From Paramesorhizobium deserti (GTDB lineage: Bacteria > Pseudomonadota > Alphaproteobacteria > Rhizobiales > Rhizobiaceae): DNA of 64,000 nt. Under the pieces are notes generated by a model. The model saw nothing but the letters and a program-made list of their open reading frames with translations, did not search any database and was not told the origin of the DNA. The translations under genes were made by a program, and so were the position numbers. Below, one piece after another: positions 3,672 through 59,812 of this stretch. The stretch's first letter is position 1, and the number at the start of each line of letters is the position of its first letter. Location of the stretch: positions 186,001-250,000 of the forward strand of contig NZ_LNTU01000023.1 in NCBI RefSeq assembly GCF_001558695.1. The letters run 5' to 3'.

Positions 3672-4706
3672 ATGGAATACAGACATCTTGGTGCATCCGG
3701 CCTCAAGGTTCCCGTCTTAAGCTTCGGCGCGGGGACGTTCGGCGGGCAGGGGCCGCTTTTCGGCGCCTGGGGCAATACGGACGTTGATGAGGCGCGGCGG
3801 CTGATCAATATCTGCCTGGAAGCGGGCGTCAATTTGTTCGATACCGCCGACGTCTATTCGAACGGGGCCTCGGAGGAGGTGCTCGGTGCAGCGATCAAAG
3901 GCCGGCGCGATCAGGTGATCATCTCGACCAAGACCGGCCTGCCGATGGGCGAGGGGCCCAATGATGCGGGCACCTCGCGGCCAAGGCTGATCAAGGCTGT
4001 CGAGGACGCGCTGCGCCGGCTCGGTACGGACTATATCGATCTCCTGCAACTGCACGCCTTTGATGCGGGAACGCCGGTCGAGGAGGTGGTATCGGCGCTC
4101 GACGATCTCGTTCGCGCCGGGAAGCTTCGTTATGTCGGCGTCTCCAATTTCGCGGGCTGGGAGCTGGTGAAGTCGCTGTCCGCGCAGGAAAGGCATGGGC
4201 TTACGCGCTATGTCGCGCACCAGGTCTATTATTCGCTGGTCGGTCGCGACTATGAATGGGGGCTGATGCCGCTCGGCCGCGACCAGGGCGTTGGTGCGCT
4301 GGTGTGGAGCCCGCTCGGCTGGGGCAGGCTCACCGGCAAGATCCGCCGCGGCCAGCCGCTGCCCGAGCAGAGCCGCCTGCACCAGACGGCCGAATATGGC
4401 CCGCCGGTCGATGACGAAAGGCTCTATGGAATCATAGACGTGCTGGACGAGATCGCCGGGGAAACCGGCAAGACGGTGCCGCAGATCGCGCTCAACTGGC
4501 TCTTGCAGCGCCCCACGGTCTCATCCGTCATCATCGGCGCGCGCAATGAGGAGCAGTTGCGCCAGAACCTCGGCGCCGTCGGCTGGTCGTTGACGCCGGA
4601 ACAGGTCGCGAGGCTCGACAAGGCGAGCGCCGTTACCGCGCCTTATCCTTATTTTCCGTACCGGCGACAGGAGGGCTTCGCCAGGCTCAATCCTCCGGTG
4701 GTGTGA
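3672..4706 (+). CDS. Aldo/keto reductase (Kv-beta/YghZ-like)
   Basis: 344-residue NADPH-dependent aldo/keto reductase with a TIM barrel. It has the N-terminal MEYRHLGASGLKVPVLSFG strand, NLFDTADVY (catalytic Asp and Tyr), STKTG (catalytic Lys), LLQLHAFD (catalytic His) and the NADPH-binding VIIGARNEEQL near the C-terminus, so the D-Y-K-H tetrad is complete. It probably reduces small carbonyl compounds. It is 38 bp downstream of the MFS gene on the same strand and likely co-transcribed. It converges with the aminotransferase, whose stop lies 19 bp away. Confidence 0.9.
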   Translation: MEYRHLGASGLKVPVLSFGAGTFGGQGPLFGAWGNTDVDEARRLINICLEAGVNLFDTADVYSNGASEEVLGAAIKGRRDQVIISTKTGLPMGEGPNDAGTSRPRLIKAVEDALRRLGTDYIDLLQLHAFDAGTPVEEVVSALDDLVRAGKLRYVGVSNFAGWELVKSLSAQERHGLTRYVAHQVYYSLVGRDYEWGLMPLGRDQGVGALVWSPLGWGRLTGKIRRGQPLPEQSRLHQTAEYGPPVDDERLYGIIDVLDEIAGETGKTVPQIALNWLLQRPTVSSVIIGARNEEQLRQNLGAVGWSLTPEQVARLDKASAVTAPYPYFPYRRQEGFARLNPPVV

Positions 4707-9735: not shown

Positions 9736-10611
9736 TCAGCCCCTGAACTGGGCCTTGCCTTCGCGGTCGAGGGCCTCGAAATCCTCGTCCGAAAGCTCGA
9801 TGCCGGCGGCGGCGACGTTCTCTTCGAGATGAGCGACCTTCGATGTGCCGGGGATGGGCAGCATGACCGGGCTGCGCTTCAACACCCATGCAAGCGCCAC
9901 CTGGCTCGGCGCCATGCGGTGGCGTTTGGCGATCGTATCCAGGAGTGAGTTGGGTTTGGCGAGATCGCCGGCCGCGAGCGGATACCAGGGGATGAAGCCG
10001 ATATCATGCTTTTCGCAATAATCGAGCACGTCCTCACTGGTGCGGTCGACGAGATTGTAGCGGTTCTGCACCGTCGCCACCTTGAAGACGCTGGACGCCG
10101 CCTCGATGTCGGCGACGGAAACCTCGCTCAGGCCCGCATGGCGGATGATGCCGTCGTCGAGGAGCGATTTGACCGCGTCGAACTGCTCGTCGCGCGGCGT
10201 CTTCGGGTCGATGCGGTGGAGCTGCCATAGGCCGATCTGGTCCACGCCGAGATTGCGAAGGCTCTTATGGGCCTGCTGGATGAGATATTCCGGCCGGCCG
10301 AGCGGGATCCACCGGTCCGGTCCCGTGCGGGTCAGCCCGCCTTTCGTCGCGACGAGGATATCGCCATAGGGATGAAGGGCCTCACGGATCAGCTCTTCGG
10401 AAATGTCGGGTCCGTAGGAATCGGCGGTATCGATGAAATTCACGTCGAGCTCGGGCAGGCGCTTCAGCGTGCGGATCGCTTCCGCCCTGTCTTCCGGTTC
10501 GCCCCAGATACCCCGGCCGGTAACGCGCATGGCGCCGAAGCCGAGACGATTGACCCTGATGTCTCCGCCGATTTCGAATGTTCCGGATCTGGCTGCCGTG
10601 GGTTCTGACAT
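9736..10611 (-). CDS. Aldo/keto reductase (YakC/AKR13-like)
   Basis: 291-residue aldo/keto reductase, shorter than and only distantly similar to the one at 3672. Catalytic tetrad elements are visible in [10 protein letters not shown] (Asp, Tyr), LVATKGG (Lys) and GLWQLHRID (His). The C-terminal NADPH-binding part is [15 protein letters not shown]. The start at 10611 ([10 protein letters not shown]) has GAGG about 10 bases upstream and is preferred over 10665. It probably reduces aldehydes or ketones in general detoxification. No operon partner is obvious. Confidence 0.88.
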
Positions 10612-10777
10612 GGCTCGGATACCTCGTTTATAGCCCGGGAGTGGTCTCGGGATGCCTGGATGCACATACGGACCAAATCGCCGGAGCGGGTTTGTGTTCC
10701 CGCAGCAATGTCAGTTTAGTCCACGTCAGGACCGAGGACCAATCACAGGATCGTTTTCGACGAGCCAGGCCTGCGCC

Positions 10778-12239: not shown

Positions 12240-12268
12240 TTACACTTGAAAAAGAAAATTTACATTTG
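12240..12268 (+). promoter_or_regulatory. Direct repeat TTACAYTTG, candidate operator of the polyol operon
   Basis: TTACACTTG at 12240 and TTACATTTG at 12260 are spaced exactly 20 bp apart (about two helical turns) in an AT-rich stretch 50-75 bp before the first gene of the polyol operon. The placement fits a regulator binding site, and the operon carries its own SorC-type regulator. No clear sigma-70 promoter could be fixed. Confidence 0.4.
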
Positions 12269-12316
12269 TATCGTGTGATGGAAATCCATTTTCCAAACGC
12301 CGTTTCCGGAAGCCAG

Positions 12317-13357
12317 ATGAGCCGAGCCCTTTTCATTCGTGGAGCCCACGACGCCTATGTCGCCCCGTTCAATCTTCGCGAGGGCGGGCCGGGCGAAGTG
12401 CTCATTGATGTCGGCGCGGTCGGGCTCTGCGGCTCGGATCTCCATTATTTCAAGGATGGTGGCATCGGCTCGGCCGTGGTGAAGGAGCCTTTCGTGCCGG
12501 GGCATGAATTTGGCGGCTATCTCTGCGAGGATCTGGACGAGCTGGGGCTTGCCCGCGGGGCGCTTGTGGCTGTCGATCCGAACAAGGCCTGCGGCCATTG
12601 CGAGTTCTGCGAGCGAGGCCATGCCAATCTCTGTCCGAATGTTGAGTTCATCGGCGCGCCGCCTTTCAACGGGGCGATGACGGAGCGCATCTGGGTGCCG
12701 AAATCCCAGATCGTGCCGCTGCCGCAGCAGTTCAGCCCGCTGGAAGCGGTGATGCTCGAGCCGCTCGGGGTGGCGATCCATGCCGTCGATCTGGCCAAGC
12801 CTCGGCTTCTGGAGCAGGTGGCGCTGATCGGCTGCGGCCCGATCGGTCTTCTCATCCTGCAGGTTCTGAAGGCGGCCGGCGCGGGCGAGATACTGGCCGT
12901 CGATCCGCAAGAGCACCGGCAGGCGATGGCGGCGCGGATGGGCGCTTCGCGAACCGGAGAAGCGGTGGAGGACATCCGCGAATGGACGAAGCGCGAGGGG
13001 GCGCCGCTGGTCATAGAGGCGACGAATTCGCCGCTCGGCTTCCGCGATGCCGTCCTTGCCACAAAGATCGGTGGGCGTATCGTCCTGGTCGGCATTCCTG
13101 ACGGAGATACCTACACATTGCCCGCCGCCGAGGCTCGGCGGCGCGGTCTGAAAATCAAATTCGCGCGCCGGATGGGGGAGGTCTATCCGCGCGCCATCGA
13201 ACTCGTCGCTGGAGGAAAGGTCGATGTGGCGTCGATGGTGACGCACCAGGTCGGCCTGGACGAGGCGCCCGACACGTTCCGCAACCATGCGGACAATGCG
13301 CCGGGCTACATCAAGAGCCTGATCTATCCGAATGGATTACCAAAACAGGGAGGATGA
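12317..13357 (+). CDS. Zinc-dependent polyol/L-idonate-type dehydrogenase (MDR family)
   Basis: 346-residue medium-chain dehydrogenase/reductase of the sorbitol/L-idonate dehydrogenase type. The catalytic zinc site is [13 protein letters not shown] with FVPGHEFGG. The structural zinc site is [15 protein letters not shown] (four Cys). The Rossmann motif is [11 protein letters not shown]. It would oxidise a polyol or aldonate hydroxyl to a ketone with NAD(P)+. The start at 12317 (MSRALFIRG) fits the family and has GGA 6 bases upstream; an ATG at 12278 and TTG at 12266 are in frame. It opens the ten-gene operon, with the binding-protein gene starting 1 bp after its stop. Confidence 0.85.
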
Positions 13358-13358
13358 C

Positions 13359-14711
13359 GTGAGGAAATTTCTGTATTCATCATTGAGCGCCCTGGCGCTC
13401 ATGGCCGGCGCGGCGTCGCTGCCGTCGACGGCCCTAGCCGAGGACTGGCTCGAAACCGCCGCCAAGCCCTATGAGGGCAGCGAGATCAATGTGATCTTCC
13501 TGGACCGCCCGGGCTATCGCGCGATCATCGAGCTCTTGCCGGAATTCGAGAAGAAGACGGGGATCAAGGTCAATTACGAGATCGTGCCCTATGAGAACAG
13601 CCGTGAAAAGCAGGTGCTCAACTTCACCTCGAACGGCGATCTGACCATCGCGCTGGTCGATCTCGTCTGGATCGGCGAATTTGCCGAAAACGGCTGGATA
13701 GCGCCGATCGACGAATTCACGTCCGATTCGTCCATCACCGATCCCAATCTCAAGCTGGATGGCTTCTTCCCGCTGCTGCTGGAGGCGTTCGGCTCATGGG
13801 GCGGCAAGACTTATGGCCTGCCTTTCGACAATTATTCGGGGCTGTTGTTCTATAATTCCTGCCAGCTCAAGGAAGCAGGCTTCGACAAGCCGCCGGAGAC
13901 CTGGGACGAGTTGCTGAACGACTATGCGCCGAAGCTGACGGATGCGGGCAACAACCGCTATGCCTTCGCGCTGCAGTCGCGGCGCGGCGAAACGCAATCG
14001 GCGGACAGCTTCATGCGGGTGCTCTGGCCGTTCGGCGGCTCGCTCCTCAACGAGGAGTTCAAGTCGAACCTCTTGAGCGAAGGCAGCCAGAAGGGGCTGC
14101 AGTTCCGTCAGGACCTGATGAAGTTCATGCCTCCGGGCATAGTCAGCTTCGACCATGCGGAAGCCGTCAATGCGCTGGCGCAGGGGCAGGTGTCGATGAT
14201 CACCGAATGGTCGGCCTTCTACGGCACGCTGACCGATCCGGCGACCTCCAAGCTTGGCGATTGCCTTGCCGTGGCGCCGGAACCGGCCGGTCCGGCGGGA
14301 CGCCTGCCTGCGCTCGGCGGCTTCTCGCTCGCCGTTGCCGAACAGGCGTCCGACGATCTGAAGAAGGCGTCCTGGCTCTTCATCCAGTGGGCGACCTCGG
14401 AAGAGATCGCGCGTCCCTATGTGGAGGCGGGCGGCGTATCCGGCCGCACGTCGATCTACGAGGAAGCGGACATCAAGGCAAAGTACAAATTCGTCGAGCC
14501 GATGGTCGCCTCCTGGCAGAAGGGCGTTCCGGAGTTCCGTCCGCGCTTCCCCGCCTGGCCGGCCATCTCGGAAGTCATCGCCGAATGGGGAACCAAGATG
14601 ATGCTCGGCGAGGTCTCGGTCGAGGGCGGGGCGAAGGAGATCGGCACCCGCATGGAGGATATCCTGGGCAAGGAAGGCTATTACGACGGCAAGCGGGAAT
14701 TGCTGCAGTAA
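13359..14711 (+). CDS. ABC sugar/polyol transporter, solute-binding protein (family 1)
   Basis: 450-residue periplasmic binding protein of the CUT1 class (SmoE/MalE-like). The signal peptide is residues 1-27 ([20 protein letters not shown]). Typical family 1 segments follow: [50 protein letters not shown] and FIQWATSEE. It starts at a GTG with GGGAGG 5 bases upstream and just after the dehydrogenase stop; the ATG at 13332 lies inside the previous gene. It delivers the substrate to the permeases at 15388 and 16290. Polyol specificity is inferred from context only. Confidence 0.88.
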
Positions 14712-14804
14712 GCCAGGATATCGACGATACTGACACGCGGCGGGTGGGCGATGGTCCACCTGCCCGGTCTTTCTCATGAGGTTTGTCCTGGGGAGGAGGA
14801 GATC

Positions 14805-15353
14805 TTGACACCATACGATCAGGCGCTTGCCGAGCTGGGCGCGGTCTTCGGGCGCATCGATGAGCAGGCGGTGGACGCGGCGGTTGCGGTTATCGCCGGT
14901 GCCAAGCGGATCGCGCTCTATGGGGTTGGCCGCGAGGGATTGCAGATCAAGGGCCTTGCCATGCGGCTCCATCATCTGGGCCTCAAGGCTGCTGTCGTCG
15001 GCGACATGACTACGCCGCCGGTGGGCGAGGGGGACCTGTTGGTCGTCTCCGCCGGTCCGGGGAGCTTCTCGACCGTTCTGGGACTGATGGGGGAGGCGAA
15101 GGCCGCTGGCGCGGAAACGCTCGTCGTGACCGCGCAGCCGAATGGCGAGGCGGCGAAGCGTGCCGATCATGTGCTCACCATTCCGGCCCAGACGATGGCT
15201 GACGATCGCGGAACGAGCGTCTCTGTCCTGCCCATGGGCTCGCTCTATGAGGGCGCGCAGTACATCCTCTTCGAGGTGATGGTGCTCAAGCTGCGGGACC
15301 GGCTTGGGATCTCGCCCGAGGCGATGCGCGCCAATCATACCAATCTGGAATAA
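14805..15353 (+). CDS. SIS-domain isomerase, 6-phospho-3-hexuloisomerase-like
   Basis: 182-residue single SIS-domain protein resembling 6-phospho-3-hexuloisomerase (HxlB/PHI). It has RIALYGVGREGLQIKGLAMR, HHLGLKAAVVGDMTTPPVGE, DLLVVSAGPGSF and ALFE-like helix QYILFEVMVLKL. PHI interconverts arabino-hex-3-ulose 6-phosphate and fructose 6-phosphate. The TTG at 14805 is chosen because a GGAGGAGGAG run ends 5 bases upstream. It lies between the binding protein and the permeases. No 3-hexulose-6-phosphate synthase is seen, so a role in polyol catabolism rather than formaldehyde fixation is more likely. Confidence 0.8.
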   Translation: MTPYDQALAELGAVFGRIDEQAVDAAVAVIAGAKRIALYGVGREGLQIKGLAMRLHHLGLKAAVVGDMTTPPVGEGDLLVVSAGPGSFSTVLGLMGEAKAAGAETLVVTAQPNGEAAKRADHVLTIPAQTMADDRGTSVSVLPMGSLYEGAQYILFEVMVLKLRDRLGISPEAMRANHTNLE

Positions 15354-15387
15354 TGGCTGGAGCCTGATGCGGAAGGGAGGAGAGTTC

Positions 15388-16290
15388 GTGGAGCGGACAG
15401 AGACGAGACTCAATCCGGGATATGGGCGCTGGACACCGTTCTGGTTTCTGGCGCCTGCCGTGTTCGCCTTGCTCGCCATCGGTATTTATCCGATGCTCTC
15501 GGCGCTCGTCACCTCCTTCCGGCGCTACAACATCACCCGCCCACGCGAAGGCTTTCCCTTCATCGGGTTCGAGAACTACGCCAATGTCCTTTCCGACCAG
15601 ACCTTCTGGCAATCGCTCGGGCTGACGGCGCGGTTCTTCGTGACCGTTCTGCCTTTCCAGCTCCTCTTCGGCATCTGCATCGCGCTGCTTCTGCATCGGC
15701 CGGGGCTCGGGATGCTGAGGTCGCTCGCCCGTGTCTCGCTGGTTGTGCCGCTGGCGACGACATATGCCGTGGTCGGGCTGATCGGGCGGCTGATCTTCAA
15801 CCGCGATTTCGGTGTCGCCAACCAGTTCCTCAACGCCATCGGCATCGGCGGCATGGACTGGCTGGGCTCGCCGACCGGGGCGTTCATCGCCATCGCGGTC
15901 ATGGATATCTGGCAGTGGACGCCGTTCTGCGCGCTGATCTTCCTCGCGGGGCTCTCCATGGTGCCGGTCGAGATCGAGGAGGCGGCGCGGCTTGAGACGA
16001 GCTCGAAGGTGGCGCTGCTCCGCCACGTGCAATTGCCTTATCTGCTTCCTGGCCTCACCGCGATGCTGATCCTGCGCTCGGCCGATATCCTGAAGCTTTT
16101 CGACATGGTGTTCGTCATGACGCGCGGCGGGCCGGGCGCGGCCACCGATCTCGTCTCGATCTATATCCAGCGCGTCGGCTTCCGCGTCTTCGACATGGGC
16201 ACAGCTTCGGCCCAGGCGATCCTGCTCCTGATCATGACGATCATATTGAGCCGCCTCTATATCAGGCTGATCTACAAGGAGATCGAGTGA
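15388..16290 (+). CDS. ABC sugar/polyol transporter permease 1 (MalF/SmoF type)
   Basis: 300-residue inner-membrane permease of the CUT1 class with six predicted helices starting at WFLAPAVFALLAIGIYPMLS. It has the EAA loop EIEEAARLETSSKVALLRHV, which contacts the ATPase. The GTG at 15388 is preferred because GGGAGG precedes it by 7 bases; an ATG at 15367 is in frame without a better site. Its stop overlaps the start of the second permease (TGATG), indicating translational coupling. Confidence 0.88.
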   Translation: MERTETRLNPGYGRWTPFWFLAPAVFALLAIGIYPMLSALVTSFRRYNITRPREGFPFIGFENYANVLSDQTFWQSLGLTARFFVTVLPFQLLFGICIALLLHRPGLGMLRSLARVSLVVPLATTYAVVGLIGRLIFNRDFGVANQFLNAIGIGGMDWLGSPTGAFIAIAVMDIWQWTPFCALIFLAGLSMVPVEIEEAARLETSSKVALLRHVQLPYLLPGLTAMLILRSADILKLFDMVFVMTRGGPGAATDLVSIYIQRVGFRVFDMGTASAQAILLLIMTIILSRLYIRLIYKEIE

Positions 16291-17108
16291 TGTCCACCAC
16301 GCTTGGCCGGATTTCGCACGGGGCGGGGCTGATCCTCGTCCTCTGCTTCACGCTCTTTCCCTTCTACTGGATGGTTTCTTCCAGCTTCAAGGATCAGGCC
16401 GATATCCTGGCTTCGCCGCCGGTCTGGTTCTTCACGCCGACGCTTGCCAATTACGCCGATATCTTCGCGGATGAGAAAGTTTTCGGCGCTATCGTCAATT
16501 CATTGATTGTCGCCACGCTGACGACGGCGCTCTCCGTGCTGCTCGGCGCACCGGCGGCCTATGCGCTCGCCCGCTTCGAGTTCCGCGGCAAGTCGGATCT
16601 GTGGTTCTGGTTCATCTCGAACCGCATGATCAGCCCGATCGTGCTCGCCCTGCCGGTCTATCTCCTGGCGGTGCAGCTCAGGATGCTCGATACCTATCTC
16701 GTGCTGGTCCTGATCTATCTCACCTTCAACCTGCCGATCGTGGTGTGGATCTGCACCGACCAGTTCCGCTCCATTCCCAGCGAGATCGAGCAGGCGGCGC
16801 GTCTCGACGGCGCGGACCAGTTCACCATCTTCCGCAAGATCTATGTGCCGCTGGGACTGCCGGGCATCGCGGTCTCGGCGATCTTCAGCTTCATCTTCTC
16901 ATGGAACGAGCTGCTCTACGCGCTGGTGCTGACGCGCCGCAGCGTCCAGACCGCGCCCGTCATGGCGACGAGCTTCATGTCCGGCTATGAGCTGCCCTGG
17001 GGCAAGATCATGGCGACGGGCACGCTGATCGTGCTGCCGGTGACGATCTTCGCGCTGCTCGTCTCCCGGCATATGGTCCGCGGGCTGACCATGGGGGCGA
17101 CCAAATGA
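16290..17108 (+). CDS. ABC sugar/polyol transporter permease 2 (MalG/SmoG type)
   Basis: 272-residue CUT1 permease with about six helices. The first is LILVLCFTLFPFYWMVSSS. The EAA motif is EIEQAARLDGADQFTIFRKI, followed by LGLPGIAVSAIFSFIFSWNE. It pairs with the permease at 15388. The ATG at 16290 overlaps the preceding stop by one base. Its own stop overlaps the start of the TIM-barrel gene by 4 bp (ATGA). Confidence 0.9.
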   Translation: MSTTLGRISHGAGLILVLCFTLFPFYWMVSSSFKDQADILASPPVWFFTPTLANYADIFADEKVFGAIVNSLIVATLTTALSVLLGAPAAYALARFEFRGKSDLWFWFISNRMISPIVLALPVYLLAVQLRMLDTYLVLVLIYLTFNLPIVVWICTDQFRSIPSEIEQAARLDGADQFTIFRKIYVPLGLPGIAVSAIFSFIFSWNELLYALVLTRRSVQTAPVMATSFMSGYELPWGKIMATGTLIVLPVTIFALLVSRHMVRGLTMGATK

Positions 17109-18031
17109 CGGCCATTCCACTCGGCATCAATCTCTCCTTCTGCGTGAAGCGGTGGGTGACGCCCGATCTCTGGGCGCCGATCGTGCGCGAGCAACTGGGT
17201 CTCGATCTGGTTCAGCTCTCGTTCGATCTCGTCGATCCGACCTGGCCCGAGGATGTCCTTGCCGATTGCGCGAGGGATATCCGCGCTGCTGCCGATCAGT
17301 ACGGCATCAGAGTCCACAGCGCTTTCATTGGCCTGGCGCATTATACGTTCAACCAGCTTCTTCATCCCGATCCCCGGGTTCGTGATGTCGCGGAAGAATG
17401 GATGAGGAAGGCCTATCGCTTCGCGGCAAGCGCTGGGATTGGGCGGGTCGGTGGGCCGCTGGGCGCCGTCGCCTCGAGGCTCGACGGGGTGGAGCCCGAC
17501 AGCATCCCGCCGGCGGATTACGATGATCTCATCGCCCGCATGGGGCGGCTGTCGCAGGCCGCGAAGGCGTGCGGCATCACCGAACTTTATGTCGAGCCGA
17601 CGCCGATGCGCCGCGAATGGCCGTGGACGGTGGCGCAGGCCCGGCGCATGGCCGCCGATCTCGCGGGGTCACCCGTGCCGTGGAAATATTGCGTGGACTG
17701 GGGGCATGCGACCTTCGAGCCGCTTTACGGGCGCTATCGCGCGGGGATGGACGAATGGTTCGAGACGCTGGCACCTGATATCGGCATGGTCCATCTGCAG
17801 CAGACCGATTTCCAGTATGACCGGCACTGGGATTTTACAGAAAGCGGTGCGGTCGATCCGGCTGAGGCGGCGGGTCTGCAGCGGCGGTGCGGCCTTGCCG
17901 ACAGGCCTGTCTTCCTGGAGGTGTTTTATCCTTTCGAGCGGGACGATCTGTCGATACTCAAGGCGGTAAAGCATTCGATTGCGATGCTCAAACCGGCTTT
18001 TGCGCAAGAGAACCCCCGAGGCGACCATTGA
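17105..18031 (+). CDS. Sugar phosphate isomerase/epimerase (xylose isomerase-like TIM barrel)
   Basis: 308-residue AP-endonuclease-2-type TIM barrel (PF01261). The metal-binding set typical of D-tagatose 3-epimerase relatives is present: Glu in LYVEPTPM, Asp and His in CVDWGHATF, His in MVHLQQTD, and Glu in VFLEVFYP. Such enzymes epimerise or isomerise ketoses, tetruloses or inosose derivatives. It overlaps the second permease by 4 bp and the regulator start by 4 bp. In this operon it could rearrange the product of the dehydrogenase before phosphorylation. The exact reaction cannot be deduced. Confidence 0.82.
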   Translation: MTAIPLGINLSFCVKRWVTPDLWAPIVREQLGLDLVQLSFDLVDPTWPEDVLADCARDIRAAADQYGIRVHSAFIGLAHYTFNQLLHPDPRVRDVAEEWMRKAYRFAASAGIGRVGGPLGAVASRLDGVEPDSIPPADYDDLIARMGRLSQAAKACGITELYVEPTPMRREWPWTVAQARRMAADLAGSPVPWKYCVDWGHATFEPLYGRYRAGMDEWFETLAPDIGMVHLQQTDFQYDRHWDFTESGAVDPAEAAGLQRRCGLADRPVFLEVFYPFERDDLSILKAVKHSIAMLKPAFAQENPRGDH

Positions 18032-18990
18032 ACGATTTCACCGAAACACCGGCAAATGCATCAGGCGAAACGGAGCAGATCCGTGCGCGCGTCGCCTGGT
18101 ATTATTATGTCGGCGGCCTGACCCAGCAGGAGATTGCAGACAAGCTGCGCATCACCCGGCTGCGGGTGAACAAGATCGTCGTGCAGGCGAGAAGCGAGGG
18201 GCTGGTCAGCGTCGATATCAAGATGCCGCTCACCCATTGCGTGGTGCTGGAGGAGAAGCTGAAGGAGCGGTTCGGCCTTGTCGATTGCTCCGTGGTGCCC
18301 TCGGTTCCCGATCTCGAAGATCTGCATCGCGTCCTTGGCCGCGCTACCGCCGCCATGCTCGATCCGCTGCTTGTCGACGGCCAGGGCTTCGGGATCGGCT
18401 GGGGCCAGACGCTCTCGGCGGCACGACGGCATCTGACGCCGCGACGCCTGCCCAATGCATGGGTTGCGGCGCTGATGGGCGGGCTGACGCGCGGATCGGG
18501 CACGAACACTTTCGAGGTGTCGACCGAATTCGCCCGCATGCTGGGCGCGGAGTGCTATTATGTGGCCGCGCCGATCTATTGCCCGTCGAGCGAAAGCCGC
18601 ACGACGCTGCTCACCCATTACGGCCTCGCGGAGACGATGGAGCGCGGCCGCAAGACGGCGGTGGCGCTGATCGCCTGCGGCGATCTCTCCAACTATTCGC
18701 TACTGGCCAAGACCCAGATCGTGACGGAAAACCTGCCAACCTTGAAGGCGGCGGGTGCCGTCGGCGATATTCTCGGCGTTTTCCTCGATGAGGACGGCAA
18801 GCCGGTCGACCATCCGCTGAACCAGCGGGTAATGGCGATGCAACCTTCGGACCTGAAGCTCATCCCGTCATCGGTCCTCGCATCGGGGGGCATGCACAAG
18901 GTGCCGATCATCCGGGCGGTGCTGAGGGCCGGCTATGTCAACCGTCTGGTCACGGATGAAGAGGTGGCCGAGGCCATTTTGAAGGATTGA
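18028..18990 (+). CDS. SorC-family transcriptional regulator
   Basis: 320-residue sugar-responsive regulator. An N-terminal helix-turn-helix (YYVGGLTQQEIADKLRITRL, then RVNKIVVQARSEGLV) is followed by the SorC sugar-binding domain, which resembles a phosphosugar isomerase fold (GFGIGWGQTLSA, VAALMGGLTRGSGTN). The TTG at 18028 overlaps the preceding TGA (TTGA) with GAGG 7 bases upstream; the upstream ATG would lie deep in the epimerase gene. It probably binds a phosphorylated intermediate and controls the operon, perhaps through the direct repeat at 12240. Confidence 0.88.
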   Translation: MNDFTETPANASGETEQIRARVAWYYYVGGLTQQEIADKLRITRLRVNKIVVQARSEGLVSVDIKMPLTHCVVLEEKLKERFGLVDCSVVPSVPDLEDLHRVLGRATAAMLDPLLVDGQGFGIGWGQTLSAARRHLTPRRLPNAWVAALMGGLTRGSGTNTFEVSTEFARMLGAECYYVAAPIYCPSSESRTTLLTHYGLAETMERGRKTAVALIACGDLSNYSLLAKTQIVTENLPTLKAAGAVGDILGVFLDEDGKPVDHPLNQRVMAMQPSDLKLIPSSVLASGGMHKVPIIRAVLRAGYVNRLVTDEEVAEAILKD

Positions 18991-19008
18991 GTGCGGGATG
19001 AGGAATTG

Positions 19009-20616
19009 ATGAGCCATCTGCTTGCGATCGATGTCGGGACGCTTTCCGCCCGCGCCGGCCTCTTCGACCGGGAGGGGCAGTTGCTCGCCTGCGCATCGGC
19101 ATCGTTCGAATTGCTGACGCCGGTGGAGCATCATGCCGTCTACCGGATGGACGATATCTGGCAGGCCGTCTGCCGCGCCTCGACCGATTGCCTCGCGCAG
19201 CGCCCTGAACTGGCGTCCTCCATCGCCGGGCTCGCCTTCGACGCCACATCGTCGCTCTATATCGAGGCGGAGGGTGGCGCGCCGCTCGATGGTGGTGGCG
19301 ACGTCATCTGCTGGATGGACCATCGCGGCGAGGCCGAGGCGGCGGAGGTCGACGCGACGGGTCACCGCTTCCTCGCGCATGTCGGCGGGGCGCTTTCGCC
19401 GGAAAGCAATCTGCCGAAGCTGCTATGGTTGAAGCGGCATCGCCCGGCGGTCTGGGCACGGGTGACGGGCGCGCGCGACCTCTGCGATGAACTCGCCCGC
19501 CGCGCGACGGATACGGACCGACATTCGGTTTGCGGTCTTGCCTGCAAATGGCCCTATCTGCCCGACGAGGCGGAACCCTGGTGCCAGGACCTGCTGGAGA
19601 CGCTCGGCATCGGCGATCTGATCTCGCTTGGCCGTCTCAATGACAAGCCAGGGAGAGTCGGCGAGGTGCATGGCAGGGTGAGCGCATCCGCAGGCGCGGC
19701 GCTCGGCATCCTCGCCGGCATTCCCGTGGCGGTGGGCTTGATCGATGCGGAAGCAGGCGCGCTTGGCGTTCTCGGGCGCGATTATCTCGCGCGGATGAAC
19801 AATCTCCTGCCGATGATCGGCGGCTCGTCCACCTGCTACATGCCCTTTGCGCCCGATGAGCGCCATGTCTCGGGCGTCTGGGGGCCATTCAAGGATGCGA
19901 TCTTCCCCGGCTACTGGATGCATGAGGCCGGCCAGAGCCTTTCCGGCACGGCGCTCGATGCCGTGCTCAACCAGCATCCGGCAAGCCCCGGCAAGGCATC
20001 GAGCGCACTGCATCTTCGGACCGCGGAGCGGATCCTGAAGCTGCTGGACGAGGAGGGCGGAGCTTTCGCGGCCAACCGGCACATTGTACCGGACTGGCTC
20101 GGCAACCGCGCGCCGCTCGGCGACGGGCGGGTGCGGGCGCTTTTAACCGGCATCGGCCCGGAAACCGGCGAGCGCGCCTTTCTGGAGGCCTATTATGCCA
20201 CGGCGCGGGCGCTGGCGCTGCAGACCCGGCATATCCTCGAGCATCTCAACGCCAATGGCCGCTATGCGTTCGACAGCGTGGCGCTGGCGGGCGGCCATCT
20301 GCACAATCCGCTTCTCGTCCGTCTTTACCGGGATGCGATCGGCGCAAGGCTGATCCTCAGCGACACGAAAGAGCCGGTGCTGCTCGGCACGGCGATGGTC
20401 GCGGCAGTCACCGCCGGCTTCCATGCCGATCTCTTCGCCAGCCTGGAGGCGATGGCGCCGAAGCAAAAGGCGCTCGATCCCGATCCCTACTGGCGGCAGG
20501 TGCACGATGCGGCCTACCGCATCTACCTCACGCTCTTCAAAACCAGAAACGAGATAGAAATCGCCGGGCGGGCCCTTGAAGCCCTGTCGCCGGCGAAAGC
20601 GTCTGGAGCCATCTGA
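19009..20616 (+). CDS. FGGY carbohydrate kinase, D-ribulokinase type
   Basis: 535-residue FGGY kinase of the pentulose (D-ribulokinase/human FGGY) subfamily rather than the xylulokinase branch. N-terminal ATPase fold: [20 protein letters not shown]. Substrate region: [13 protein letters not shown] with [12 protein letters not shown]-terminal domain: [19 protein letters not shown] and [20 protein letters not shown]. It would phosphorylate D-ribulose or a similar ketose. The ATG at 19009 has GAGG 5 bases upstream, 18 bp after the regulator stop. A second FGGY kinase lies at 21703, so the operon may handle two ketoses. Confidence 0.85.
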
Positions 20617-20617
20617 T

Positions 20618-21703
20618 ATGTCATTTCTTCGTCTCGACAATGTGGTCAAGCGCTACGGCGATCATTTTGCCGTTGAGGGCGTGAGCCTTGCGGCGGAAAA
20701 GGGCGAGTTCGTCGTCTTCGTCGGGCCGTCCGGCTGCGGCAAGTCGACCCTCTTGCGCATGATCGCCGGGCTGGAGGAGATCAGCGCCGGCGACGTCTTC
20801 ATCGACGAGAAGCTTGTCACCCATGTGGAGCCGGCGCGGCGCGAGGTGGCGATGGTCTTCCAGTCCTATGCGCTCTATCCGCATATGAGTGTCTACGACA
20901 ATCTCGCCTTCGGCCTGCGCATGGTGAAGACGGGCGAGGAGGAGATCAGGAAGCGGGTGACGGAGGCGGCGCGCATCCTGCAGATCGAGCCGCTCCTCCA
21001 GCGCAAGCCGCGCCAGCTCTCCGGCGGCCAGCGCCAGCGCGTGGCGATCGGCCGGGCGATCGTGCGCAATCCCAAGCTCTTCTTGTTCGACGAGCCGCTT
21101 TCCAATCTCGATGCGGAATTGCGCACCCAGATGCGCGTCGAGATCGCCAAGCTGCACCGCGCGCTCGGCGTCACCATGGTCTATGTCACGCATGACCAGA
21201 TCGAGGCGATGACGCTGGCCGACCGCATCGTCGTCCTGCGGGCGGGGCGGGTGGAGCAGATCGGCACGCCGACCGAGCTTTACGACAATCCGGCCAATAT
21301 CTTCGTCGCCGGCTTCATCGGCTCGCCGAAGATGAATTTCCTGCCGGCCAAGGCAAGTGCTGCGGCGGAGCGGCAATTGACTGTTTCGAGCCCTGCCTTT
21401 GCCGGCGGCGAGCTGACGGTTGCCACCAAGCGCCCGCATCAGGTGAAGGCCGGTGACAGCGTGACGGTGGGGATGCGGCCCGAGCATCTGGAAGTGCACG
21501 CCGCCAATCCGGTGTTGACGCTGAAGGCCGATTTCACGGAATATCTCGGTGGCGCCAGCCAGATCTATGCCCAGCCGGTGGAAGGGCCTGTCATGACCAT
21601 CGTCGCGCCCGGACGGCTTGCCCTCGCCAAGAACGAAGATCTGGCGGTAGGCGTCGCGCCGGAGCATGTCTATCTCTTCGATCAGCAGGGGCTTGCGATC
21701 TGA
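20618..21703 (+). CDS. ABC sugar/polyol transporter ATPase (MalK/UgpC type)
   Basis: 361-residue ATPase of the CUT1 class. Walker [11 protein letters not shown]-loop [11 protein letters not shown], signature [15 protein letters not shown], Walker [13 protein letters not shown] and the H-loop VTHDQIEAM are all intact. The C-terminal 120 residues form the MalK-type OB/TOBE regulatory domain ([12 protein letters not shown]). It energises the importer made by the genes at 13359, 15388 and 16290, completing a full transporter. Its stop overlaps the xylB start (TGATG). Confidence 0.93.
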
Positions 21704-23215
21704 TGGCGACCTATCTCGGTGTCGATGTCGGTACATCTTCCGTAAAGGCCGTGCTTCTCGACGAGGATCAGGCGCTGATCGCCGAGGGATCGGCTCCGGT
21801 CGAGGTCTTGCGGCCGCGGCCGATGTGGTCGGAGCAGGATCCGGAGGAATGGTGGCAGGCCGCGCAAAAGGCCGTCACGCGGGTCCGGAATCTCGCGCCC
21901 GAGGCTTTCGCTCAGGTGGAAGGCATCGGCCTTTCCGGCCAGCAGCACAGCGCCACCCTGCTCGACGGCCAGGGCAGGGTGCTGCGGCCGGCGATCCTGT
22001 GGAATGACGGGCGCTGCGGCCGCGAATGCGCGGAGCTGCTGGAGCGAGTGCCGGATTTCATGGTCCGCTCGTCGAACACGACCATGCCCGGCTTCACCGC
22101 GCCGAAGCTCATCTGGGTGGCGCGGCACGAGCCGGAGGTCTTCGAGAAAACCGCCAAGGTGCTCCTGCCAAAGGATTACCTGCGCTATCGGCTCTCGGGC
22201 GATTATGTGTCGGAGATGTCGGATTCGGCAGGCACACTGTGGCTCGATGTCGGAAAGCGCTGCTGGGACGATGTGCTCCTCGACGCCTGCGCCATGAAGC
22301 GCGCGCAGATGCCGGATCTGGTGGAGGGGGCGGAGGTCTCGGCCTATCTCTCGGATGAAGTGGCCAAGGCCTGGGGGCTCGGGGGGCGGAAAATCCCGAT
22401 TGCTGGCGGTGGCGGGGATAATGCATCCTCTGCCGTTGGTATCGGCGCCGTCGGCCCGGGCGACGGTTTCCTGTCGCTCGGCACGTCGGGTGTGCTGTTC
22501 GTCTCGACCGACCGGCTCGTCTCCTTGCCGGAGCGGACGCTGCACGGTTTCTGTCATGCGCTGCCGCAGCGCTGGCACGGCATGGTGGTGGCGCTTTCGG
22601 CGGCTTCGGCGCTTTCATGGCTCGCATCGCTTACTGGCCATCAGCATGATGTGGCCAGGCTCATCGAAAAAGCGAAGCAGTTCGCCGCCGATCCGGGGCG
22701 GCGCGAGGCGGCACCGGTCTTCCTGCCCTATCTCACCGGCGAGCGCACGCCGCACAACGATCCCAACGCCACCGCCGGGTTCAGCGGGCTTCGCGCCGAG
22801 CATGATGCCGGCGCGCTGGCCTATGCGGTGTTGGAAGGCGTGGCGTTTGCGCTCGCTGATGGTCTCGATGTGCTCAAGGCAGCGAATGCGGCGCCGCGCT
22901 CCTGCATGCTGGTGGGCGGCGGCTCGCGCAGTGCCTATTGGAACGGGCTTTTGGCCGACGTTCTTGGCTTGTCGCTCGATTTGCCTGAAGGGGCGGAGAT
23001 CGGTGCCGCCTTCGGTGCTGCCCGTCTCGGCATGGTCGCGGCGGGGGCAGGCACGATCGAAGCGATCTGCCGCAAGCCTGCCATCCGGGCGCGTTTTACG
23101 CCCGATCCGGAGAAGGCACCCATCTTCGCCGAACGCCGGGGGCGTTATCTCGACATGTATCCGGGCGCGAAAAGAAACGGCCCGGGAACCGGAGCCGGTC
23201 CTCGGGCCGATGTAA
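21703..23215 (+). CDS. xylB: Xylulokinase, 3' end irregular (no in-frame stop at family length)
   Basis: FGGY kinase of the xylulokinase branch: [83 protein letters not shown] and GGGSRSAYWNGLLADVLGLS. It phosphorylates D-xylulose. Homology should end near 23175 (RRGRYLDMYPGAKR, about residue 490), but the frame has no stop there and stays open to 24765, antisense to ftsK. The end given (23215) is the TAA reached after a +1 shift and is only nominal. A strong hairpin at 23179-23208 falls right at the expected end. The gene may have lost its stop codon or carry a small indel. Confidence 0.75.
23179..23208. terminator. Hairpin between convergent xylB and ftsK
   Basis: Near-perfect 14-bp stem (GGCCCGGGAACCGG / CCGGTCCTCGGGCC) with a 2-base loop, followed by a second small palindrome GGGAAATTTTCCC and CGTTTTTTAC. 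It lies between two convergent genes and probably ends transcription in both directions. Confidence 0.7.
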
Positions 23216-23238
23216 GGGAAATTTTCCCGTCGCGTTTT

Positions 23239-25827
23239 TTACGACGAAAGAATCTCGCGCTTGCCCACATGATTGGCCGGGCCGACCAGTCCTTCCTTCT
23301 CCATGCGTTCCACCAGCGAGGCGGCGCGGTTATAGCCGATGCCGAGGCGGCGCTGGATGTAGGAGGTGGAGCACTTCTTGTCGCGCATGATCACCTTGAC
23401 CGCCTGAGCGTAGAGATCATCGTCGCCATCCTCCGCAGCCATGGCGGTCTTGTCGAACACGGCGCTGTCCTCCGGCTCAGGCGCTTCTTCCTCCTCATCC
23501 GCCGTGACGGTGTTCAAGTAATCGGGGTGGCCCTGCGCCTTCAGATGGGTGACGACCTTCTCCACCTCCTCGTCGGAGACGAAGGGGCCGTGCACGCGCG
23601 AGATGCGCCCTCCGCCGACCATGTGCAGCATGTCGCCCTGGCCGAGCAGCTGTTCCGCGCCCTGTTCGCCGAGGATGGTGCGGCTGTCGATCTTCGACGT
23701 CACCTGGAAGGAGATGCGGGTCGGGAAGTTCGCCTTGATCGTGCCGGTGATGACATCGACGGAGGGACGCTGGGTCGCCATGATCAGGTGGATGCCGGCG
23801 GCACGGGCCATCTGGGCGAGACGCTGGATCGCGCCTTCGATCTCCTTGCCCGCGACCATCATCAGATCTGCCATCTCGTCGACGATGATCACGATATAGG
23901 GCATCGGCGCGAGGTCCATCTCCTCCTGCTCGTAGAGCGCTTCGCCGGTGTTCTTGTCGAAACCGGTCTGGATGGTGCGCACGATCGCCTCGCCCTTCTG
24001 CCTCGCGGTGGAGACGCGGCTGTTGAAGCCATCGATATTGCGCACGCCGACCGCCGACATCTTGCGGTAGCGGTCCTCCATCTCGCGCACCGCCCATTTC
24101 AATGCCATGACGGCCTTCTTCGGGTCGGTGACAACGGGTGTCAGGAGATGCGGGATGCCGTCATAGATCGAGAGCTCCAGCATCTTCGGATCGACCATGA
24201 TCAGGCGGCATTCCTCGGGCTTCAGCCGGTAGAGGAGCGACAGGATCATGGTGTTGATGGCGACCGACTTGCCCGAGCCGGTGGTGCCGGCGACGAGCAG
24301 GTGGGGCATCTTGGCGAGTTCGGCTACGACCGGCTCGCCGCCGATGGTCTTGCCCAGGCAGAGCGCCAGCTTGTAGCCGGAGCGCTGGAAATCCTGCGAG
24401 GTGATCATCTCGCGGAAATAGACCGTCTCGCGGGTGGTGTTGGGCAGCTCGATGCCGATGACGTTGCGGCCCGGCACCACCGCGACGCGGGCCGAGAGGG
24501 CCGACATCGAGCGGGCGATATCATCAGCAAGGCCGATGACGCGGGAGGATTTCACGCCGGGCGCCGGCTCGAACTCATAGAGGGTAACGACCGGGCCGGG
24601 ACGCACATGGATGATCTCGCCCTTGACGCCGAAATCTTCGAGAACGCTTTCGAGAAGCCCGGCCTTGCGCTCCAGCATCTCCTGCGTGATGATCTCGCCT
24701 TCCTGCGCCACCGGCTCCTGCAGGAGCTCGACCGACGGCTTTTCATAGCCATGCGCATGGCCTGACGTATTGAGCTCGATGCGGACGGCGGCGAAGGACT
24801 GCTCCTTGCGCACCGTGGCAATGGGCGCAACGGGGATGGCCTTTCGCGGGCTGTCCTCGGTCGTATCACGGGTCTCCTGCAGAGTGCTTGGAACACTCGC
24901 GCTGCCGGTTTCCGCTTGCGCGACCGGCGCGGTGACCGGCGCTGTTGCTGTAACCGGCGCAGGCGCGGTTACAGGAGCGGGCGGGGTTGCAGGAGCGGCC
25001 ATGGGTGATGGGGCCGGCATTGCCGCTTCGGGCTCGCCGGCCTGCTTCCATTCCACGACGCGGAACAGGTTGGTGATCGATGAGGGCGTCATCTGCGGCT
25101 TTGGCCGGGCAGGGAGGACGGCTGGAGCCGGGGGCTGTTCGCCGTTGAAGTCGATCGATTCCCAGTAGGCGAAGTCGGACAGATGGGCGAATGGCGTGTC
25201 CTGGCGGGCGGCTGCGGGAGCAGGCCGCGGTGCCGGCGAAGGCGAACTCGCAGCCGGCGGCTCACTGGCAATCGACGAAGCTGGCGTGATGCGGGGAGCG
25301 GGCGCTGCCGCGACCGGTATGTTTGCCGCGGCCGGTGTTCCGCGCGGGGGCGTTACCTGCACCATCGGCTTCGGCTGAACGGGATGGTTGGGGCGTGTCT
25401 CGTTCGCCGCGACCGGCTGAGGCTCCCGCGATTTCGTCAATTCGATTTCCGGCGTGCGGGTGAAGCGCACGTTTTCGGCCAGTGAAAAGGCGTGCTTCCA
25501 CACCGGCGGATAGCCGGTATCGCTCATCTGCGCCTGCTGCGTGCTGGAGGCCGCCATTTGCGCATGGGCGGCGCGCAGCGCGTCCACGGCGGCGGACGTG
25601 GTTTTCAGCGCGACCGGCTGAAGCGGGGTCTGGCGCAAAGGCTGGTAGGCCGTGGTGACGGAGGCGGAGACGGGGGCCGGATTGCGGGGCGCGTGGTAGG
25701 GTACGGGATTGGTGGGAGATTCGGGTGCAGCCGGGCCGCGTCCGGTCATCTGCGGATGATCCCGGTTTTCCGGACTATCATCGTAATCAGCTGGATTTAC
25801 TGGAAAATTTGTTCTCTGGATACGCAT
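23239..25827 (-). CDS. ftsK: DNA translocase FtsK/SpoIIIE family, without membrane helices
   Basis: 862-residue DNA translocase. Residues 1-370 are Pro/Ala-rich and low complexity with no transmembrane helices, unlike canonical FtsK, which begins with four. The motor follows: alpha domain ([20 protein letters not shown]), beta RecA-like domain with Walker [14 protein letters not shown] and Walker [13 protein letters not shown]. The C-terminal gamma winged helix ([20 protein letters not shown]) would read KOPS sequences. Rhizobia often carry two FtsK homologues and this looks like the soluble one. It may pump DNA or act in XerCD recombination without septal anchoring. Confidence 0.9.
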
Positions 25828-31586: not shown

Positions 31587-31663
31587 TGGTAGCGGAGGAG
31601 GGATTCGAACCCCCGACACAAGGATTATGATTCCTCTGCTCTAACCTACTGAGCTACTCCGCC
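31587..31663 (-). tRNA. tRNA-Met (anticodon CAT)
   Basis: 77-nt tRNA including encoded CCA. Acceptor stem GGCGGAG/CTCCGCT, D-arm AGCTCAGTAGGTTAGAGC, anticodon stem GAGGA/TCCTT with loop ATCATAA (anticodon CAT), and T-loop GGTTCGAATCC are visible. G1 pairs with T72 as a wobble and the body matches the rhizobial elongator Met tRNA rather than the initiator, which has a mismatched first pair and three G-C pairs in the anticodon stem. Confidence 0.95.
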
Positions 31664-44363: not shown

Positions 44364-44892
44364 CGTAGACCTATCAACTGCAGGATGCAGAATGTGCGAT
44401 CTCATAAGACAAGCGGCATGGGTGTACAAGTTGCTTTCCAAGAAAACTTCACATCCCCGGTCAAGAAAACTTCGCGCCCGCAGTAATGGGCGGAGGCATT
44501 TACCAATGAAGCCATCATTCTTCCCCTTTCGTGCTTGACGGGCGTTCGCCGCGGCGCTGTTTCAAAAATCCATAATGTCGGCCAATCCGTTCCGCCGATT
44601 TGTTCTCGCGCAAGGTCGCACAGCGATTCTTACATTAACCGCCTCGGCGTGAGTCCCATCGGCGGGAGGCAGAACGGGTAAATCGACCGTGGATTTTGGC
44701 CTTGGTGAATCGCAATTTTCTCCCTCCCAACTGTTTATTAGAAATTTTTTCCACAGATTACCCTTACGTCAACTGTAAAAATGTTACTTTCTTTCAAGAA
44801 ATGGGCTTGCAATGAATCGTGTCAGGAGCTTCCATGAGGCAGGCTGCGGGCAAGGGGTGTCCGCGGCAACAGTACCTCTTGGAGGCGGAATC
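44364..44892. other. Intergenic region upstream of dppA
   Basis: 529 bp between divergent hugZ-like and dppA genes. The last 150 bp are AT-rich and probably contain the dppA promoter. No gene, repeat or clear hairpin was recognised. Confidence 0.5.
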
Positions 44893-46488
44893 ATGAAACT
44901 CTACAAAAAAATGCTGGCCGCGACGGCGCTCGCCGTTCTGATGGCCGGAAGCGCTTCGGCCAAAACACTCGTCTATTGCTCGCCGGCTTCGCCGGAAGGC
45001 TTCGATCCGGCGGCCTATACCGGCGGTGATACGTTCGATGCTTCGTCGCGCACGGCCTATAACCGTCTGGTTGAGTTCAAGCATGGTGAGACCACGATCG
45101 AGCCGGGCCTTGCCGAAACCTGGGAAGTTTCGGAAGACGGCCTCGAATATACCTTCCACCTGCGCAAGGGCGTGAAGTTCCAGACCACCGATTTCTTCAC
45201 GCCGACGCGTGAATTCAACGCCGACGACGTGATCTTCTCCTTCGAGCGCCAATCCAAGAAGGATGATCCGTGGCATGCCTACACGTCGGGCGTTTCCTAC
45301 GAATATTTCGACAGCATGGAATTCCCGACGCTGATCAAGGAAATCAAGCGCGTCGACGATCACACGGTCACGTTCGTGCTCAGCCGTCCGGAAGCACCAT
45401 TCCTGGCCGATCTGGCCATGGATTTCGCTTCGATCCTGTCGAAGGAATATGCCGACAAGCTGCAGGCCGACGGCAAGATGGACAATCTCAACCAGGCGCC
45501 GGTCGGCACCGGCCCCTTCACCTTCGTTGCCTACCAGAAGGACGCGGTCATCCGCTACAAGGCAAATCCGGATTACTGGAACGGCAAGCAGCCGATCGAC
45601 GATCTCGTCTTTGCAATCACGACCGACCCGGCCGTGCGCGCGCAGAAGCTGAAGGCTGGTGAATGCCACATCATGTCCTATCCTGCGCCTGCCGATATCG
45701 AAGGGCTGAAGGCCGATTCGAACCTGAAGGTGGACGAACAGGCGGGCCTCAACGTCGCCTATTTCGCCTACAACACGCTGAAGGCGCCCTACGACAAGCC
45801 TGAAGTGCGCAAGGCGCTCAACATGGCGATCAACAAGCAGGCGATCATCGATGCCGTGTTCCAGGGCTCCGGCCAGGTCGCCAAGAACCCGATCCCGCCG
45901 ACGATGTGGGGCTATAACGACGCGATCAAGGACGATCCGTACGATCCGGAAGCGGCCAAGAAGATGCTTGAGGAAGCCGGTGTCAAGGACCTCAAGATGA
46001 AGCTCTGGGCAATGCCGGTGAGCCGACCCTACATGCCGAACGCGCGCCGCACTGCCGAGCTCATGCAGTCGGATTTCGCCAAGGTGGGCGTGCAGGCCGA
46101 GATCGTCTCGATGGAATGGGGCGAATATCTCAAGAAGTCGTCCGACAAGGATCGTGACGGCTCCGTCATCCTCGGCTGGACGGGTGACAATGGCGATCCG
46201 GACAACTTCCTGGGCGTTCTGCTCGGCTGCGCCGGTGTCGGCAACAACAACCGCGCGCAGTGGTGCTACCAGCCATTCGAAGACCTGATCCAGAAGGCGA
46301 AGGTCGCCTCCAATCAGGAAGAGCGCGCCAAGCTTTATGAAGAGGCGCAGGTCATCTTCAAGGAGCAGGCGCCCTGGGCGACGCTGGCGCACTCCACGGT
46401 CTTCATGCCGATGTCGAGCAAGGTCAGCGGCTACAAGATGGATCCGGTCGGTATCCATCGCTTCGACGGCGTCGATATCGCCGAATAA
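44893..46488 (+). CDS. dppA: Dipeptide ABC transporter binding protein DppA
   Basis: 531-residue periplasmic binding protein of family 5. The signal peptide is residues 1-22 (MLAATALAVLMAGSASA). DppA-type motifs are TLVYCSPASPEGFDPAAYTG, YNRLVEFKHGETTIEPGLAE and FHLRKGVKFQTTDFF. The ATG at 44893 has GGAGG about 9 bases upstream; the ORF extension to 44812 is not used. It binds di- and tripeptides, and in rhizobia also delta-aminolevulinate. First gene of dppABCDF. Confidence 0.92.
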   Translation: MKLYKKMLAATALAVLMAGSASAKTLVYCSPASPEGFDPAAYTGGDTFDASSRTAYNRLVEFKHGETTIEPGLAETWEVSEDGLEYTFHLRKGVKFQTTDFFTPTREFNADDVIFSFERQSKKDDPWHAYTSGVSYEYFDSMEFPTLIKEIKRVDDHTVTFVLSRPEAPFLADLAMDFASILSKEYADKLQADGKMDNLNQAPVGTGPFTFVAYQKDAVIRYKANPDYWNGKQPIDDLVFAITTDPAVRAQKLKAGECHIMSYPAPADIEGLKADSNLKVDEQAGLNVAYFAYNTLKAPYDKPEVRKALNMAINKQAIIDAVFQGSGQVAKNPIPPTMWGYNDAIKDDPYDPEAAKKMLEEAGVKDLKMKLWAMPVSRPYMPNARRTAELMQSDFAKVGVQAEIVSMEWGEYLKKSSDKDRDGSVILGWTGDNGDPDNFLGVLLGCAGVGNNNRAQWCYQPFEDLIQKAKVASNQEERAKLYEEAQVIFKEQAPWATLAHSTVFMPMSSKVSGYKMDPVGIHRFDGVDIAE

Positions 46489-56516: not shown

Positions 56517-56599
56517 CCATTATGGGGTAGCGATCGCCCCACGAGGCCACGGCTGAAGAATCGCGTCCTTTGAACCCGAGCCAAACGGAGGGACGCGTT

Positions 56600-59647: not shown

Positions 59648-59812
59648 CCCCTAAAAATCCCCTCTTATTTCGATATTTTCTCTATGAAGGCGCTTTTAAT
59701 CGGTGAGAACAGCTATGTAAAATGAAATATATGGGAGAAATCACATAGGGCGCTTTCCTGCTTCGTGGAAACCGGAAAACGGCTCTATTCCCTTTGTTTC
59801 TGGAGCACACCC

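Follow-up and report, generated by a model that had tools for sequence, protein, structure and literature searches.

Background

Among described systems, the pentitol genes of Klebsiella aerogenes come close to a ten-gene operon that we have analysed in Paramesorhizobium deserti, within a 64,000-nucleotide stretch of DNA (the window; positions 186001-250000 of contig NZ_LNTU01000023.1, in a 5.48-Mb genome of 41 contigs). The Klebsiella ribitol (rbtD-rbtK-transporter) and D-arabitol genes bring together, as does the window, a D-ribulokinase and a xylulokinase gene of the FGGY type in one region, about 4.7 kb apart, and in the reference annotation the genes for ribitol 2-dehydrogenase and D-ribulokinase neighbour a xylulokinase gene and fragments of a D-arabinitol dehydrogenase. 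The Klebsiella region differs, however, in its transporter, which belongs to the major facilitator superfamily, and no gene in the 13.6-kb stretch examined is annotated as a sugar isomerase (SIS) domain or TIM-barrel protein.

The smo locus of Sinorhizobium meliloti (SmoEFGK, SmoS and MtlK) resembles the window in its MalK-type polyol importer of the ATP-binding cassette (ABC) class and in its EryD/DeoR-type regulator SmoC (PMC10433430), and the FGGY kinase that occupies the SMc01503 position in a smo-type locus of strain Ak57 (L170) shares 40% identity with the first kinase of the window. However, the importer parts are 24-49% identical, SmoS and MtlK are other dehydrogenases, and neither a SIS nor a TIM-barrel protein is among the genes listed. 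S. meliloti also possesses a multi-polyol transporter, as well as erythritol, adonitol and L-arabitol genes (PMC3599248). In the Rbl operon of Citrobacter rodentium an ABC importer is likewise found with a D-ribulokinase and an isomerase of the SIS-domain type; this operon differs in that D-ribulose is imported through another family of binding proteins and the KpsF-like SIS protein is dispensable on D-ribulose (PMC12307932). The FGGY kinase family itself is treated in PMC3245297.

Set beside these systems, the window operon is in our assessment rather likely to be a SorC-controlled unit for pentitol use (most probably ribitol, alongside D-arabitol and/or xylitol), which would feed D-ribulose 5-phosphate and D-xylulose 5-phosphate. 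Judged by sequence, most of its parts are familiar, and its SIS protein comes from a widespread branch that is without the family's usual phosphate-gripping residues.

Gene content and organisation

All ten genes lie on the + strand, from 12317 to about 23165. The families, strand and order named in the original prediction were borne out by domain and profile matches, and its end coordinate and some gene starts were corrected. The features are as follows.

12240..12271, + strand: operator-like 32-bp dyad, TTACACTTGAAA-N8-TTACATTTGTAT (aligned upstream regions, shuffle control, matrix scan, dyad count)
12317..13357, + strand: zinc-dependent polyol dehydrogenase of the medium-chain dehydrogenase/reductase (MDR) type, P0001 (ADH_N and ADH_zinc_N; nearest solved relative sorbitol dehydrogenase, 156.8 bits; zinc and Rossmann motifs)
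13359..14711, + strand: family-1 sugar-binding protein of an ABC importer, P0002 (SBP_bac_1; best solved relative 5iai, 154.8 bits)
14805..15353, + strand: SIS protein of the Gly-Arg-Glu / PAQTMA subfamily, P0003 (SIS domain; TIGR03127 151.2 bits, cut-off 160; motifs; model and fold)
15367..16290, + strand: ABC permease 1, P0004 (BPD_transp_1; alternative start GTG 15388)
16287..17108, + strand: ABC permease 2, P0005 (BPD_transp_1)
17105..18031, + strand: xylose-isomerase-like TIM-barrel protein, putative sugar epimerase/isomerase, P0006 (AP_endonuc_2; 3qxb 202.1 bits; 4k3z 52.7 bits)
18028..18990, + strand: SorC/DeoR-type regulator, P0007 (Sugar-bind domain; DeoR/LsrR models under their cut-offs)
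19009..20616, + strand: FGGY kinase of the pentulose-kinase subfamily, divergent, P0008 (TIGR01315 381.5 bits, cut-off 408.7)
20618..21703, + strand: UgpC/MalK-type ABC ATPase, P0009 (NF008653 478.9 bits, above cut-off 432)
21703..~23165 (end approximate), + strand: xylulokinase XylB, the start of P0010 (TIGR01312 543 bits, above cut-off 380.25; stops of relatives)
23163..23237, + strand: hairpin directly 3' of xylB, possible terminator (fold z-score -2.40; 4 of 200 shuffles as good)

The close spacing that had been claimed holds: 4-bp overlaps join permease 1 to permease 2, permease 2 to the TIM-barrel gene and the latter to the SorC gene, and the remaining gaps are all below 100 bp, the longest (93 bp, with the preferred SIS start) separating the binding-protein and SIS genes. 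To these is added a 1-bp overlap at the ATPase/xylB junction. For the SIS gene the probable start is TTG 14805, following GGAGGAGGAG, rather than the upstream ATG 14751: the genes of relatives begin at the former, and in the longer form residues 1-12 have a predicted local distance difference test score (pLDDT) below 50. The start codons chosen for the SorC gene (TTG 18028) and the first kinase gene (ATG 19009) are likewise the probable ones.

The operon had been taken to end at 23215; that position, however, is the stop of an out-of-frame open reading frame (22355-23215) and not of xylB. The xylB frame, from 21703, is open to 24765, with the kinase match ending near residue 487. At the point where its relatives end it lacks a stop codon, and it continues for about 1.6 kb, mostly antisense to a convergent ftsK-like gene (23239-25827, - strand, named from its translation). 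Fifteen of 16 xylB relatives stop 4-11 codons past the end of the match, the stop of the other (L135) lying beyond the stretch compared. Since the hairpin follows right after xylB, the long read-through product may not be made.

Conservation of the operon and its sister type

The search for the same gene neighbourhood that had been suggested as a check was run on two partly overlapping sets of loci. The 81 named loci consist of the best 80 of the 533 places at which the SIS subfamily occurs in a collection of 84,980 species genomes, together with one Phyllobacterium plasmid, and they lean to close relatives because of this choice. The order sample comprises 297 genomes drawn evenly from the order, the own genome included; at E 1e-20, 53 of these contain a match to P0003, and 53 regions were fetched. 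Within the genus, matches at 1e-40 are found in 4 of 6 genomes, again counting the own one.

The gene order of the window (type A) recurs in 18 of the 81 named loci, all 18 of them with KinR and 16 with XylB, as well as in 6 of the 53 order-sample regions, two of those six being without XylB. This recurrence is beyond chance. A sister arrangement (type B), defined by an orthologous importer, SIS, TIM-barrel, SorC and ATPase without the type A dehydrogenase, accounts for 26 of the 81 named loci, and its binding protein is 81-86% identical to P0002. Type B loci carry a sorbitol-dehydrogenase-like MDR gene (25/26; the one in L037 scores 285 bits against human sorbitol dehydrogenase), a homologue of the Klebsiella ribitol 2-dehydrogenase RbtD (24/26, 66-76% identity) and a homologue of the Klebsiella D-ribulokinase RbtK (23/26, 59-67% identity), all three occurring together on the same strand in 22/26. 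By BLASTP one type B member showed 67% identity to K. aerogenes RbtD and 61% to RbtK, and the type B kinase passes the TIGR01315 cut-off (668.7 against 408.7 bits). The Klebsiella pair is thus met in the sister operon, whereas RbtD was seen in 0 of the 18 type A loci and the window operon holds a distant RbtK relative. The presence of RbtD and RbtK homologues in type B provides a substrate clue for the window operon.

The original prediction would have been refuted by an earlier assignment of the gene set to a known pathway, and this turned out to be half the case. The set does occur in many genomes, and its sister set contains known ribitol enzymes, but no experimental assignment was found for the window set itself; no description of it was recognised in the open-licence literature searched, most subscription papers lying outside, and nothing useful was found there on published assimilation of adonitol, D-arabitol and xylitol by Phyllobacterium.

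A shared upstream site

In an alignment of eight upstream regions a dyad was first noticed, with the consensus ATACnnTTGnAAAnnnnAAATTACATnTGTAT, in which 16 of 20 comparable positions are symmetric about the centre, against at most 6 at eight other centres tried (25 selected sites). In the window it is overlapped by the promoter-like TTGAAA-17-TATCGT (12246-12274). When up to 5 mismatches were allowed, 17 sites were found in 17 of the 81 loci, 7 of which had contributed to the consensus, versus 0 in 30 shuffled consensuses; up to 6 mismatches gave 24 matches in 21 loci versus a mean of 0.17. In the own genome a single site falls within 3 mismatches.

A matrix built from 12 sites, mostly from the same loci as those scanned, had its best score upstream of the operon, and not elsewhere in the locus, in all 18 type A regions (15 scoring above 25; L109, L113 and L114 are weak). 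The same held for 26 of 29 type B-like regions under a looser definition, two more being too short; in the three failures (L140, L142 and L146) no TIM-barrel or SorC match was found. Such a site may be bound by the SorC regulator, and its presence before both types suggests an inducer common to types A and B.

The two kinases

The pairing of two pentulose-type kinases had been thought to fall outside textbook pathways. This does not hold, as Klebsiella classically has a D-ribulokinase gene next to one for xylulokinase, and the sister operon has the ribitol dehydrogenase/D-ribulokinase pair; the two kinases are therefore not the puzzle. XylB lies well above its equivalog cut-off and is 53% identical to Klebsiella xylulokinase over 425 columns, the reference being cut at the edge of the stretch compared. 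A second RbtK-like kinase is present elsewhere in the genome (C34:477138-478649), with 45% identity to the type B kinase.

Proposed pathway and the order of its steps

From the gene content we infer substrates, step order and the reactions of the SIS and TIM-barrel proteins as follows. The ABC importer would take up a five-carbon polyol, most likely ribitol, with D-arabitol and/or xylitol, and the MDR enzyme would oxidise it to a ketopentose. The first FGGY kinase would phosphorylate D-ribulose and XylB D-xylulose, both products then entering the pentose phosphate pathway. Ketoses or aldoses that the kinases do not take directly would be interconverted by the TIM-barrel and SIS proteins. The SIS protein would act ahead of the kinases on an unphosphorylated C4-C5 sugar, by aldose-ketose or keto-shift isomerisation. 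The broader proposal of a single co-regulated polyol/ketose operon working by oxidation, isomerisation or epimerisation, and phosphorylation is supported by the finding of a conserved unit with its own operator-like site, and the statement that the SIS and TIM-barrel steps have no textbook role stands.

P0001 possesses zinc and nucleotide-binding motifs, and its nearest solved relative is a polyol dehydrogenase. Sorbitol dehydrogenase, to which the dehydrogenases of both types are nearest, acts on free polyols. This speaks against an erythritol-like scheme in which phosphorylation comes first, the FGGY kinase acting on the polyol and the MDR enzyme on its phosphate, with ketose phosphates as the substrates of the TIM-barrel and SIS proteins. 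Such a scheme could draw on the weak relationship of the TIM-barrel protein to 4k3z (52.7 bits; deposited as D-erythrulose 4-phosphate dehydrogenase), on the S. meliloti erythritol kinase EryA, which serves adonitol and L-arabitol too (PMC3599248), and on phosphosugars being the usual ligands of SIS domains (PMC12680351). However, the SIS protein is without the canonical phosphate-loop residues and the type B RbtD and RbtK form an oxidation-first pair, and we regard phosphorylation before oxidation as unlikely.

Several observations weigh against the pentitol assignment. Ribitol needs only a dehydrogenase and a D-ribulokinase, so that the constant presence of SIS and TIM-barrel genes suggests another substrate, either in addition to ribitol or in its place. 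In the genome of the window RbtD has no orthologue (best 34%), the first kinase is under its TIGR01315 cut-off and 35% identical to Klebsiella RbtK, and the binding protein is distantly related to solved proteins. Some 37 of the 81 named loci, some of them incomplete, belong to neither type A nor type B, and the SIS protein is therefore not tied to pentitols. Kinase density is not raised near the SIS gene either, with 0.028/kb within 3 kb versus 0.066/kb at 6-10 kb in the order sample (0.013/kb versus 0.087/kb in the named 80 loci).

A substrate assignment from the binding protein alone was attempted and dropped, 5iai, probably a ribitol complex and not counted as evidence, being too distant (154.8 bits).

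The SIS protein and its subfamily

The SIS protein had been called hexuloisomerase-like, which is true of its fold. Its predicted model has the fold of 6-phospho-3-hexuloisomerase (PHI), with HxlB-type structures as the closest folds, and HxlB is its best named family. Compared with HxlB/PHI proteins (PDB 1m3s, 1vim, 1jeo), however, it scores under the cut-off (151.2 against 160 bits), has an invariant Gly-Arg-Glu in place of the canonical Gly-Arg-Ser, with Glu at position 62, and a second loop Gly-Pro-Gly in place of one like SGSGET, and carries a PAQTMA motif. No hexulose-6-phosphate synthase (HxlA) was found above the family cut-off of 200 in the own genome, where two weak matches scored 29.6 and 23.1 bits. 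In view of the score, the loops and the lack of an HxlA above cut-off, a PHI role in formaldehyde or hexulose metabolism was rejected; the kinases of the operon being pentulose-type, a true 6-phospho-3-hexuloisomerase serving a hexitol or formaldehyde operon is highly improbable.

A SIS protein that still handles a phosphosugar, after the kinase step, deserves more serious consideration. The phosphate could be held by other residues or lie at the other end of the molecule, as in a ketose 1-phosphate. In 144 of 144 SIS sequences R72, H75, E167 and H196 are common to the subfamily and canonical PHI, several kinase types lie nearby in the loci, and the KpsF-like isomerase of the Citrobacter D-ribulose operon (PMC12307932) offers a parallel, as does the predicted PHI fold. 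Opposed to this are the invariant Glu for the canonical Ser and the Gly-Pro-Gly for SGSGET, and we place this explanation at appreciable odds that fall short of even. Our preferred reading remains that the substrate would be an unphosphorylated sugar.

In a tree of 38 of the 144 sequences, those with Gly-Arg-Glu/GPG form one group (support 91/82; 88% of bootstrap trees, the bootstrap not having settled), whereas the four canonical GRS sequences do not (2 changes). One SIS lineage (L077-L079) combines Gly-Arg-Glu with an SGSG second loop and may stand between canonical PHI and the window subfamily as an intermediate. Relatives beyond Alphaproteobacteria include those of Anaeromyxobacter oryzae (72%) and a metagenome-assembled genome labelled Ardenticatenia (67%), L157/L169, the latter genome having permease, TIM-barrel and MDR relatives near the SIS gene. 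A canonical GRS hxlB on the Pantoea ananatis plasmid NZ_CP020945.2 (L174) lies beside a phosphotransferase system (PTS) IIC gene, a ribulose-phosphate 3-epimerase gene and a gene of the short-chain dehydrogenase/reductase (SDR) type; PHI-type proteins therefore occur in PTS sugar loci also.

The company kept by the subfamily is varied. It is found beside dihydroxyacetone-kinase-type genes, Rbs-type transporters and TIM-barrel genes (e.g. L044, L046, L048), an iron-type dehydrogenase and SDR (L052, L056), an aldo-keto reductase and ribokinase-type kinase (L050), BtpA/SgcQ (L067) or a DUF1537 kinase (L054), which argues for a general sugar step that is not pentitol-specific. The loci L041, L043, L044, L046, L048, L050, L054 and L067 contain kinases of the FGGY, ribokinase, dihydroxyacetone or DUF1537 type, or else genes for BtpA/SgcQ, an aldo-keto reductase or a creatininase-like protein, and may stand for several uncharacterised sugar pathways. 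At least one of seven kinase queries, drawn from these loci or the window, matched in 33 of the 53 order-sample regions; as the queries came from the same loci and density does not rise near the SIS gene, the kinase neighbourhood was dropped as evidence.

More tentatively, and with odds well below even, the Gly-Arg-Glu proteins may be a large family of enzymes whose SIS fold, typically a binder of phosphosugars, has been adapted to the isomerisation of free C4-C5 sugars. This would be an early step common to operons whose kinases are of the FGGY, dihydroxyacetone, ribokinase or DUF1537 type. In the window operon, together with a TIM-barrel epimerase, it would allow a single importer to supply both kinases from several pentitols and pentoses.

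Surroundings of the operon

Elsewhere in the window, two aldo/keto reductase genes lie upstream of the operon, at 9736-10665 (-), about 1.6 kb away, and at 3672-4706 (+). A tRNA-Met gene (31587-31663, -), a family-5 solute-binding protein (44812-46488, +) and a PutA-like proline dehydrogenase/aldehyde dehydrogenase fusion with a DNA-binding domain (59765-62926, +) were also recorded, and a chrB-a RNA motif (Rfam RF03078; 56519-56602, +) is located at the 5' end of an open reading frame with a ChrB C-terminal domain (56570-57412).

Conclusions

For Alphaproteobacteria associated with plants and soil, the operon offers a genetic route of pentitol use that can be put to the test, and one of its components, the SIS protein, may have a new enzyme activity. 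Types A and B amount to a natural swap experiment, in which importer, SIS protein, TIM-barrel protein and upstream site stay constant, whereas dehydrogenases and kinases differ. Members of the SIS subfamily are easily given the name 6-phospho-3-hexuloisomerase by homology, although their phosphate loops argue otherwise, and the assignment of one member would settle many annotations.

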